From assembly GCF_000024405.1 (NCBI RefSeq), contig NC_013517.1:744001-808000 (forward strand): DNA of 64,000 bases, given 5' to 3'. The DNA is from Sebaldella termitidis ATCC 33386. Its GTDB lineage: Bacteria > Fusobacteriota > Fusobacteriia > Fusobacteriales > Leptotrichiaceae. Below the pieces are notes generated by a model. The model was not told the DNA's origin and searched no databases. It was given only the letters and a program-made list of their open reading frames with translations. The translations under genes and the position numbers were made by a program. This document shows, piece after piece, positions 15,626 to 18,724 of the stretch; the stretch's first letter is position 1, and each line of letters begins with the position of its first letter.

Positions 15626-15655
15626 TTGACATTTGTATTTTTTTATGAGTATAAT
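15626..15655 (+). promoter_or_regulatory. Promoter of the M-box/mgtA transcript
   Basis: TTGACA (15626-15631), an 18-bp spacer and TATAAT (15650-15655), with TGAG before the -10. Transcription would start at about 15662, right at the 5' edge of the riboswitch. Confidence 0.8.
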
Positions 15656-15665
15656 ATGTTGTCAA

Positions 15666-15861
15666 TTGAATATCGGTAGGTGAGGTTAACTCAAGGGATA
15701 CGGATTGCTGCCGCGGGAAGATGGAGACATTTTTTCGTTTTGGTATGAGCAGTCTAGGTCGATTCAAGGCTTAGAATAATGCAATTTCATTGCCCTGAGA
15801 AGCTAAAACTCGTACGATACTGTAATAGTAAACTTCGCCGTCTTTATGTGGGCGTTTTTTT
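15666..15861 (+). promoter_or_regulatory. M-box (ykoK leader) Mg2+ riboswitch with terminator
   Basis: The conserved M-box blocks are present in order: GGTAGGTGAGG (about 15675-15685), GGGATACGG...TTGCTGCCG (about 15695-15713), and near the end GCTAAAACTCGTACGAT (about 15802-15818). The expression platform is the hairpin at 15836-15861. M-box RNAs fold with Mg2+ and terminate transcription of Mg2+ transporters when Mg2+ is sufficient. The downstream gene is the Mg2+ P-type ATPase mgtA, which fits. Confidence 0.93.
15836..15861 (+). terminator. Riboswitch-controlled terminator
   Basis: CGCC (15836-15839) pairs with GGCG (15851-15854), followed by a run of T. It is the OFF state of the M-box. 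Confidence 0.8.
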
Positions 15862-15894
15862 ATTTATAAATATTAAATTCAGGAGGTGGAAGAA

Positions 15895-15993
15895 ATGCCG
15901 GAAGAACCCAGTAAGAATATAGAGCACAGGAGAATTACATATAATATAAGTATTTGCATGGAAAGTGGAAGGATTTCTTCCATCATATTGTAA
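15895..15993 (+). CDS. Putative 32-aa leader peptide between M-box and mgtA
   Basis: A strong AGGAGG (15881-15886) is placed ideally before ATG 15895. The ORF encodes MPEEPSKNIEHRRITYNI... and stops at TAA 15991-15993, so it lies wholly inside the mgtA leader, after the riboswitch terminator. It is not in frame with mgtA. Its start (Pro-Glu-Glu-Pro) recalls the acidic/proline-rich N-termini of enterobacterial MgtL (E. coli MEPDPTPLP...), which make translation sensitive to Mg2+ and proline and so control mgtA. No homology beyond this composition can be claimed. It could instead be a chance ORF, but the ribosome-binding site is among the best in the window. Confidence 0.55.
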   Translation: MPEEPSKNIEHRRITYNISICMESGRISSIIL

Positions 15994-16087
15994 TGAAATA
16001 AATTTTTGGAAAATTATTGTATGAAATTCTTCAAGGCTTTATATTTTTGAGACATAGATTAAAAATAATAGCTTTGGAGGTAGGACA

Positions 16088-18724
16088 ATGAAAAAAAGAG
16101 AAAATTTTCTGTCTTTTTCTGCTGCAGATCTGTTTAGATATGCAGAAATGGACATGAACGAGGTATATGAAGGATTAGAAAGCAGCAGCAGAGGTTTGAG
16201 CGAAGAGGAAGCTGAGGACAGACTTGAAATATTCGGTTTGAACGAAGTAAAGCATAATAAACAGGAAACATGGATAACACAGTTATCAAAAGCTTTTATA
16301 AATCCCTTTGTAGTTGTATTAATGCTACTTGCGGGAGTTTCTTTCATAACGGACGTATTTATGGAAACACAGGGTAAAAAAGACTGGACAACAGTTATAA
16401 TAATAGGTCTTATGGTAGGTATCAGCGGAATGCTGAGATTTGTTCAGGAAATGAGATCCGGGAAAGAGGCAGAGAAGCTGAAAGCGCTTGTTCATAATAC
16501 AAGTGATGTGCTGCGTAAGGATGGGAACAGACAGGAAATTCCGATGAAAAATGTGGTGCCGGGTGATATTGTAAGGCTTGCGGCAGGGGATATAATTCCC
16601 GGTGATTTGAGAATAATATATTCAAAGGATTTATTTTTAAGTCAGTCTATGCTTACAGGAGAAGCAGAGCCTGCTGAAAAATATAATGTTATAAAAAATC
16701 CGGATGAAAAGAAAACAGTCCTTGAGCTGGATAATATATGTTTTATGGGAACAAACGTAGTCAGCGGAAGCGGAATTGCAATAGTTGTCAATACAGGAAA
16801 CAGAACATATTTTGGTTCTATGGCAAAAAGTCTTGCGGAAAAAAGACCTGAGACTAGCTTTGACAAAGGCGTAAACAGTGTAAGCTGGCTTTTGATAAAA
16901 TTTATGCTTGTAATGATACCGCTGGTATTCTTAATAAACGGAATAATAAAAGGCGACTGGCTGAGTGCATTTTTATTTGCTGTTTCTATAGCCGTGGGAC
17001 TGACTCCCGAGATGCTTCCTATGATAGTTACCACTAACCTTGCCAAAGGCGCGGTTTTTATGTCAAAGCATAAAACAGTAGTAAAAAGTCTGAATTCGAT
17101 ACAGAATTTTGGTGCTATGGATGTACTTTGTACTGATAAGACAGGAACTCTGACACAGGATAAAATTGTACTTGAAAAGCATCTTGATGTACACGGTAAT
17201 GAAAATGACAATGTTCTAAAGCATGCTTATCTGAACAGCTACTACCAGACAGGACTCAAAAATCTTATGGATCTGGCAGTTATAGAATATGGAAATGAAA
17301 TAGGACTGGAAAAAATACAGGATAAATATGAAAAAGTAGATGAAATACCATTTGATTTTGCAAGAAGAAGAATGTCAGTGGTAATAAAGGATAAAAGCGG
17401 GAAAACGCAGATGGTAACAAAAGGTGCAATAGAAGAAATGCTTTCGATATGCAGTCATACTGTTTATAACGGCAGAGCAATAGAGCTTACTGATAACATA
17501 AAGGATGAAGTAAGAAAAAATGCAATAGAGCTGAATGAGGACGGTATGAGGGTAATAGGAGTGGCACAGAAAACGAATCCGAGAAGTGAAGGGCTGTTCA
17601 GTGTGGAAGATGAGAAAAATATGCTCCTGATGGGATACATAGGCTTTCTCGATCCTCCTAAAGACAGTGCGGCAAAAGCAATACAGGCGCTTCATGAGTA
17701 CGGTGTCAGCATAAAGGTGCTTACAGGTGATAATGAAATAGTAACAAAAAAAATATGTAAAGAAGTAGGAATAAAAGCAGAAAAAATAATTCTTGGGGTA
17801 GAGGTAGAAGAGCTTAGTGAGCTACAGCTGGAAAATATTGTGGAGGAAACTACAATATTTGCAAAATTATCTCCGCTTCAAAAATCAAGAGTGGTAAAGG
17901 CGCTTCAGAGAAGAGGGCATACAGTAGGATATATGGGTGACGGTATCAATGATGCACCGGCGCTGAAAGACGCAGATGTAGGAATATCTGTCGATACAGC
18001 CGTAGAAATAGCAAAAGAATCTGCTGATATTATTCTTCTGGAAAAAAGTCTTATGGTGCTTGAAGAAGGAGTAATAGAAGGAAGAAGAACTTTCGGAAAT
18101 ATAATAAAATATATAAAAATGACTGCGAGCTCAAATTTCGGTAACATGTTCAGTGTACTTGTGGCAAGTATATTTTTGCCTTTTCTGCCAATGCTTCCGA
18201 TACATATACTTATACAAAATCTTATTTATGATATTTCGCAGATTTCGATACCATGGGATACGATGGACGAAGATTATCTAAAGCAGCCTAGAAAATGGGA
18301 TGCATCTGGAATAAGCAGGTTTATGATTTTTATAGGACCGATAAGCTCAATATTTGATATAGTTACTTTTTTGGTGATGTGGTTTGTATTTAAATGCAGT
18401 GCAGGAACAGAAGCTGCACAGGCATTATTTCATTCAGGATGGTTTGTAGAGGGACTTTTGTCGCAAACATTGATTGTACATATGATACGTACAAAGAAGA
18501 TACCTTTTATTCAGGATTCGGCTTCATTCCCGGTAATGATGCTTACATTCCTTGCAATGATAGCCGGAATAGTAATACCATTTACATCATTTGGACGTTC
18601 GGTAGATCTTACTGCACTTCCTCCGCTTTACTTTGTATGGCTTGCGGGAATTCTGATATCATATTGTTTCCTTACGCAGGTAGTAAAAAAATGGTATATT
18701 AAAAAGTTTAATTCATGGCTGTAG
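16088..18724 (+). CDS. mgtA: Magnesium-transporting P-type ATPase
   Basis: MgtA imports Mg2+ across the inner membrane using ATP. The 878-aa length and motif set fit a P3B ATPase: N-terminal cation ATPase domain (about 15-85), TGEAEP in the actuator (about 190-195), the phosphorylation site D350-K-T-G-T, nucleotide-binding region, and MGDGINDAPALKDADVGI followed by AVEIAKESADIILLE. About ten membrane segments are spread from residue 70 onward. TTTGGAGG precedes ATG 16088. Expression should rise when Mg2+ is low through the M-box at 15666-15861 and perhaps the leader ORF at 15895. The gene ends before a hairpin and a terminator. Confidence 0.95.
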   Translation: MKKRENFLSFSAADLFRYAEMDMNEVYEGLESSSRGLSEEEAEDRLEIFGLNEVKHNKQETWITQLSKAFINPFVVVLMLLAGVSFITDVFMETQGKKDWTTVIIIGLMVGISGMLRFVQEMRSGKEAEKLKALVHNTSDVLRKDGNRQEIPMKNVVPGDIVRLAAGDIIPGDLRIIYSKDLFLSQSMLTGEAEPAEKYNVIKNPDEKKTVLELDNICFMGTNVVSGSGIAIVVNTGNRTYFGSMAKSLAEKRPETSFDKGVNSVSWLLIKFMLVMIPLVFLINGIIKGDWLSAFLFAVSIAVGLTPEMLPMIVTTNLAKGAVFMSKHKTVVKSLNSIQNFGAMDVLCTDKTGTLTQDKIVLEKHLDVHGNENDNVLKHAYLNSYYQTGLKNLMDLAVIEYGNEIGLEKIQDKYEKVDEIPFDFARRRMSVVIKDKSGKTQMVTKGAIEEMLSICSHTVYNGRAIELTDNIKDEVRKNAIELNEDGMRVIGVAQKTNPRSEGLFSVEDEKNMLLMGYIGFLDPPKDSAAKAIQALHEYGVSIKVLTGDNEIVTKKICKEVGIKAEKIILGVEVEELSELQLENIVEETTIFAKLSPLQKSRVVKALQRRGHTVGYMGDGINDAPALKDADVGISVDTAVEIAKESADIILLEKSLMVLEEGVIEGRRTFGNIIKYIKMTASSNFGNMFSVLVASIFLPFLPMLPIHILIQNLIYDISQISIPWDTMDEDYLKQPRKWDASGISRFMIFIGPISSIFDIVTFLVMWFVFKCSAGTEAAQALFHSGWFVEGLLSQTLIVHMIRTKKIPFIQDSASFPVMMLTFLAMIAGIVIPFTSFGRSVDLTALPPLYFVWLAGILISYCFLTQVVKKWYIKKFNSWL

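Follow-up and report, generated by a model that had tools for sequence, protein, structure and literature searches.

M-boxes abort transcription when free Mg2+ is high. Another Mg2+ sensor, the destabilisation of the ribosome by acidic nascent chains, has been described in enterobacteria, whose mgtA has no M-box. In translational attenuators of the ermC type, translation of a leader selects between hairpins which hide or free a downstream start, and an antibiotic-stalled ribosome is the trigger.

In the MgtL leader ribosomes drop off on the residues EPDP (Glu2-Pro3-Asp4-Pro5) at low Mg2+, which hides a Rho-dependent terminator (PMC11282234). The mgtQ ORF in the mgtCBRU operon of Salmonella has eight codons; Asp2 and Glu5 lower its own translation and raise the translation of mgtB by freeing the start site of the latter from a stem (PMC8092293). 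For the M-boxes of pe20 and rv1535 in Mtb, the upstream ORFs uORF1 and uORF2 have been described: the uORF is conserved, translated and a direct target of the riboswitch, and the peptide was called mycobacteria-specific (PMC12810186, 2026). This was the nearest case in our full-text literature search, which, with most subscription papers outside its scope and priority not certain, gave no earlier account of M-boxes followed by acidic leader ORFs in Bacillota or Fusobacteriota.

The mgtA leader of Sebaldella termitidis

The stretch of 64,000 nucleotides from S. termitidis ATCC 33386 which was analysed here is called the window, and coordinates refer to it unless another contig or locus is named. 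In the leader of its mgtA gene a 32-codon ORF is located downstream of the terminator-like hairpin of an M-box (ATG 15895-15897, TAA 15991-15993; start MPEEPSKNIEHRR..., full MPEEPSKNIEHRRITYNISICMESGRISSIIL). The elements of this region are, from 5' to 3':

15626..15655, + strand: promoter-like site TTGACA-18 nt-TATAAT, consensus matches 12/12
15665..15830, + strand: M-box Mg2+ riboswitch aptamer (RF00380; 83.9 bits, E 8.6e-17, gathering score 44)
15836..15861, + strand: terminator-like hairpin of the M-box with U-run, a weak stem of 4-5 bp (-5.6 kcal/mol in S. termitidis)
15881..15886, + strand: Shine-Dalgarno (SD) sequence AGGAGG of the leader ORF, read from the sequence and present in 4/4 Sebaldella leaders
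15895..15993, + strand: leader ORF, 32 codons, with a conserved acidic/proline start (MPEEP) and a variable C-terminal half, according to the ORF list and alignments
16088..18724, + strand: mgtA, P-type ATPase Mg2+ transporter, named from homology and the M-box context

With 83.9 bits against a gathering score of 44 the aptamer belongs to RF00380, and from this family membership we infer that the M-box terminates transcription in dependence on Mg2+. By eye, the relative L005 has a stronger terminator stem (CUCGC/GCGAG) than S. termitidis (15836-15861). AGGAGG and the ATG at 15895 are separated by 8 nt, while 94 nt lie between the stop of the ORF and the start of mgtA. A sequence-only reading of this DNA had placed the ORF behind a near-ideal SD site; its coordinates and sequence match ours exactly (15895-15993), and AGGAGG is indeed found at 15881-15886. 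Like an MgtL-type leader, the window ORF is short and SD-led, has acidic and proline residues in its first codons and lies upstream of mgtA.

Conservation of the leader ORF in Fusobacteriota

M-boxes were found in 18 of 98 Fusobacteriota genomes. Counting one M-box before mgtA per genome and setting aside the tandem M-boxes before mgtC of S. termitidis (see below), this gives 18 loci. At all of them the stretch from the terminator to mgtA contains an SD-led ORF which is 24-41 codons long and whose codons 2-5 include acidic residues. The mgtQ-type arrangement, in which a Mg2+ transporter is preceded by an SD-led ORF with acidic residues among its first five codons, is likewise present at 18/18. 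The peptides start with MPEEPS in the four Sebaldella genomes, with MEGD/EVQSS and MDA/VGV in genus g17 and with MDVEN and MDTE/GN in genus g15. Seventeen further mgtA-like genes of Fusobacteriota have no M-box match; the upstream regions of 14 of these 17 paralogues were read, and none contains an acidic SD-led leader ORF. That such an ORF is a general property of mgtA leaders is ruled out by these paralogues.

Start, SD and the MPEEPS residues are unchanged in 4/4 Sebaldella genomes, and the only change within codons 2-6 of the most distant Sebaldella is a synonymous one (CCG/CCA). Across SD, start and codons 2-6 the nucleotide identity amounts to 89-100%, and to 33-38% in codons 13-32 of the most distant relative. 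In the leader L014 an indel of 1 nt alters the C-terminal reading frame, and the RNA helix formed in this part (the 3' arm of P1, see below) is retained. On the level of sequence, it is the N-terminus and the RNA which are conserved, not the C-terminus of the peptide. A conserved peptide product is ruled out by this drifting and frameshifted C-terminus.

The sequence-only reading had named a failure to find the ORF and its start codon conserved among relatives as the result that would speak against it. This check turned out in its favour, the ORF being conserved at 18/18 Fusobacteriota loci.

Acidic leader ORFs behind M-boxes of Bacillota

The closest mgtA outside Fusobacteriota in our scan (67-68%) comes from a Thermoanaerobacteraceae MAG, which has the same layout and an ORF starting with MDDGGNS... 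In the class of this MAG 13/13 mgtA leaders combine an M-box, called by Rfam for L053 and several others and by consensus sequence for the remainder, with an ORF starting with MD or ME. The Thermoanaerobacter leaders and some of the Fusobacterium leaders have no more than one or two early acidic residues and no proline, and these may be weak destabilisers.

For a broader survey 398 Bacillota genomes were sampled, giving 108 M-box leaders with a recognisable downstream gene, 87 of which have a leader of at least 110 nt. Within leaders of this length the first ATG or GTG with an SD of at least 5 nt and 8-95 codons was taken as the leader ORF. By this rule, which misses ORFs with a weaker SD and may assign starts wrongly, and in genomes which are related to one another, SD-led ORFs were found in 49 of the 87 leaders; dinucleotide shuffles gave a mean of 6.2 and a maximum of 13. 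In the other 38 leaders of sufficient length this strict rule finds no ORF, so the arrangement is not universal. A small control set of SAM riboswitches (13 leaders with room) yielded an ORF in 2/13, with Asp or Glu at codon 2 in 0/2.

Acidic residues in codons 2-6 are present in 44 of the 49 Bacillota leader ORFs, and codon 2 encodes Asp or Glu in 35/49 of them compared with 12/108 downstream gene starts. Examples are MDPDPGSS, MDADPEPQ, MDGDPSPY, MDDPYPGH and MESEEGDY. The genes behind such leaders, named by eye from their N-termini, are mgtE-, corA- and mgtA-like and others. Among 54 acidic starts 52 have D or E at position 2, and the commonest residues at positions 4 and 5 are D and P, so that the Bacillota consensus reads M-D-x-D-P. 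This consensus stands in the register of Glu2-Pro3-Asp4-Pro5 of MgtL. The sequence-only reading was right about the acidic/proline resemblance to MgtL, but its view that this is compositional only is too cautious.

The 54 starts draw on all four acidic codons and comprise 47 distinct heptapeptides, so that selection seems to act on the residue and not on one base motif. The possibility that the acidic codons are a by-product of base pairing was also considered; it may hold in part where AUGGAC lies in helix P1, but the four acidic codons and the 47 different starts speak against it.

Two groups of Bacillota leaders deviate. In the M-box leaders L226 and L239 of genome G427 (MSADPEPPPDSRS... 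and MSTESDPART...) the acidic motif is displaced by one or more codons. In L188, L189, L195, L200, L205 and L208 the gene begins about 68-70 nt past the M-box, and its product starts with V(A/N)R(A/V)TNLALTM; a leader ORF would not fit into this space.

Judging by the genomes sampled, the arrangement is widespread and not peculiar to Sebaldella or Fusobacterium.

Predicted RNA helices in the leader

Pairing and folding analyses predict the following elements in and behind the window ORF:

15885..15896, + strand: 5' arm of helix P1, comprising leader SD and start codon (GGUGGAAGAAAU); pairs with 15973-15984; hairpin z -2.58, shuffle p 0.020
15973..15984, + strand: 3' arm of helix P1 (AUUUCUUCCAUC), ORF codons 27-30; retained in L014 despite the 1-nt indel
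15929..15945, + strand: segment A, ORF codons 12-17; 16/17 pairs with segment B, p 0.007
16016..16032, + strand: segment B, used both by helix A:B and by the hairpin over the mgtA start, from pairing and folding
16015..16090, + strand: hairpin over the mgtA SD (16076-16080) and start codon (16088-16090); -21.1 kcal/mol, z -4.57, 0/200 shuffles as stable

Since segment B is also the 5' strand of the mgtA hairpin, this hairpin and helix A:B exclude each other. P1 crosses A:B, and the two must therefore be alternatives or form a pseudoknot.

The helices, including B:C (segment B with the mgtA SD region), were searched at their expected positions in 12 representative leaders. The combined Fisher p is 4e-12 for P1, 3e-11 for A:B and 2e-5 for B:C, values which serve as a guide only because the 12 leaders, from Fusobacteriota and the Thermoanaerobacter class, come from related genomes. 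Individually, B:C is significant in only 4/12 leaders. Inspection of the alignments revealed compensatory changes in all three helices: U-A to C-G in A:B (L002 versus L017), G-C to A-U in P1 (L004 versus L020) and two double changes in B:C (L007 versus L010). In Bacillota P1 reaches p<=0.05 in 22/31 leaders and B:C in only 4/31; the output wiring there may differ, as B:C is so infrequent.

When segment A is blocked by a ribosome footprint in nested folding, the predicted accessibility of the mgtA SD drops in 4/4 Sebaldella leaders and in L017, L012, L004 and L020. L012 does not discriminate, because there a footprint at any place of the ORF acts on folding in the same way. No clear switching was seen with blocked footprints in the other leaders, the Fusobacteriaceae leaders L003, L018, L009 and L019 being flat. 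Tested in this way, a simple nested thermodynamic switch agrees with the proposed direction in Sebaldella and a small number of other leaders only, and in these models the competition between the helices is only partly supported. The recurrence of the helices, like the leader ORF with its conserved acidic start, can be read from the aligned leaders directly.

A second mgtA locus in the same genome

S. termitidis has a second mgtA, which is 58% identical to the first. Its mgtC-mgtA operon is preceded by two tandem M-boxes, each with its own terminator-like hairpin (G000:C1:2726594-2726983; loci L006 and L015), which could give a steeper or a two-input response. Between mgtC and the second mgtA, the position held by mgtQ in Salmonella, there is a second SD-led acidic ORF (L015:2821-2919; MNEGELCRSENF..., MNEGELC...). 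The three helices are also found here, in unrelated sequence, with p 0.010 for P1, 0.007 for A:B and 0.017 for B:C in shuffle tests.

Proposed mechanism and alternative explanations

We have fair confidence that the mgtA leader contains two Mg2+ sensors in series, namely the M-box and, behind it, an acidic ribosome-destabilising ORF which frees the mgtA start site. As a first step, the M-box would abort transcription at high free Mg2+. On transcripts that get past it, a strong ribosome-binding site would become accessible together with a short ORF that begins with codons rich in acidic residues and proline, and at low Mg2+ the ribosome would pause or drop off at these codons by intrinsic destabilisation, after the example of MgtL and mgtQ. 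Drop-off before about codon 10 would leave segment A free to pair with B, which would release the mgtA start site (ON), while translation through segment A would let B fold onto the mgtA SD and start codon (OFF). P1 would likely limit re-initiation on the leader. What we infer is that the ORF is translated, that ribosomes drop off, in which direction the switch works and that it depends on Mg2+; translation of the leader ORF probably decides whether the Mg2+ pump is made. Because both sensors would act in the same direction, they would together form an AND gate with two steps that responds to low Mg2+. In S. termitidis termination at the M-box may be leaky, with a reliance on the second layer. 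Two-layer control of this kind, riboswitch first and ribosome-destabilising leader second, was the central proposal of the sequence-only reading, and the conservation of the ORF in Fusobacteriota together with its enrichment in Bacillota supports it on comparative grounds.

An output of the MgtL type, in which the leader ORF would govern Rho-dependent termination between ORF and mgtA and drop-off on acidic codons would hide a Rho loading site, is unlikely in our opinion. The N-terminus, whose acidic and proline residues stand in the MgtL register, and the rho gene in the S. termitidis genome would agree with it. However, the region is A/U-rich with no obvious C-rich loading stretch, and the mgtA start site is enclosed in a strong hairpin (z -4.57) for whose 5' side a segment of the ORF competes, as in mgtQ with its translational design. 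By analogy, the output looks translational, with the mgtA start site sequestered as in Salmonella mgtQ, and not Rho-dependent as in MgtL.

We regard it as improbable that the ORF serves translational coupling or reinitiation only, in which case its translation would do no more than open the RNA and the acidic start would have no ribosome-sensing role. While the strong SD and the helix joining the leader start to the end of the ORF are in line with such a function, the distance of 94 nt from the ORF stop to mgtA is too far for simple coupling. Moreover, the excess of Asp and Glu at codon 2 in Bacillota (35/49 ORFs versus 12/108 gene starts) and the MDxDP consensus require a reason at the level of amino acids.

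We consider it highly improbable that the ORF encodes a small peptide with a function in trans, for instance on MgtA. The conserved uORF2 of the Mtb M-box has been proposed to encode a regulatory peptide (PMC12810186), but the conservation of the leaders studied here is limited to the N-terminus, their length varies between 24 and 41 residues across Fusobacteriota, and the 1-nt indel of L014 changes the whole C-terminus with the RNA helix intact. Mechanical lists contain many short ORFs, but a chance ORF in a structured leader is hardly credible, being contradicted by the 18/18 conservation, the enrichment in Bacillota and the controls with dinucleotide shuffles and SAM riboswitches.

Returning to two sensors in series, we lean towards the view that the M-boxes of Bacillota and Fusobacteriota generally work in two stages, with an aptamer for free Mg2+ followed by an acidic/proline ORF of the MDxDP type reporting ribosome stability, and that the enterobacterial MgtL and mgtQ are one lineage's version of a multi-phylum sensor. 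Many bacteria may thus sense Mg2+ twice in succession, by RNA and then by the ribosome. The same type of ORF, often with MDxDP, behind M-boxes in two distant phyla suggests that Mg2+ sensing through ribosome stability is old or was invented repeatedly. It also suggests that the control region often has a second half beyond the M-box leader known from textbooks. The leaders form a large natural set for testing which nascent sequences cause ribosome drop-off and how two Mg2+ sensors combine in one transcript.

Comparison with known systems

The modules, i.e. M-box, MgtL, mgtQ and the M-box uORFs of Mycobacterium, are known; as far as the literature search reached, their combination is new, and it is unexpectedly wide. 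The M-box of B. subtilis ykoK/mgtE (RF00380) likewise places aptamer and terminator ahead of a Mg2+ transporter gene, but it is a complete switch alone, whereas the leader ORF of the window would add an extra layer. An M-box followed by a conserved uORF is shared with pe20/rv1535 of Mtb, which are set apart by their published description, as it contains no interpretation by acidic drop-off. Attenuators of the ermC type follow the same logic of hairpin choice as proposed for the Sebaldella leader but respond to antibiotic stalling instead of Mg2+.

The closest worked-out mechanism, as judged by analogy, is the translational one of Salmonella mgtQ, with the Rho-dependent MgtL in second place. 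MgtL (PMC11282234, PMC6460261) shares the acidic/proline start before mgtA, with EPDP in codons 2-5 facing MPEEP in Sebaldella and MDxDP in Bacillota, a comparison by motif register only. It differs in its Rho-dependent termination and in a leader that has no M-box, while the window locus has an M-box upstream and an output which looks translational. With mgtQ the locus has in common a short AGGAGG-led ORF before the gene of a Mg2+-transporting P-type ATPase, where the acidic codons of mgtQ are codons 2 and 5, and alternative stems, here predicted, one of which occludes the ribosome-binding site of the transporter. In contrast to the 8 codons of mgtQ, the ORFs of Fusobacteriota have 24-41; their helices follow the order 1-A-1'-B-C, and the ORF of the window lies directly behind an M-box.
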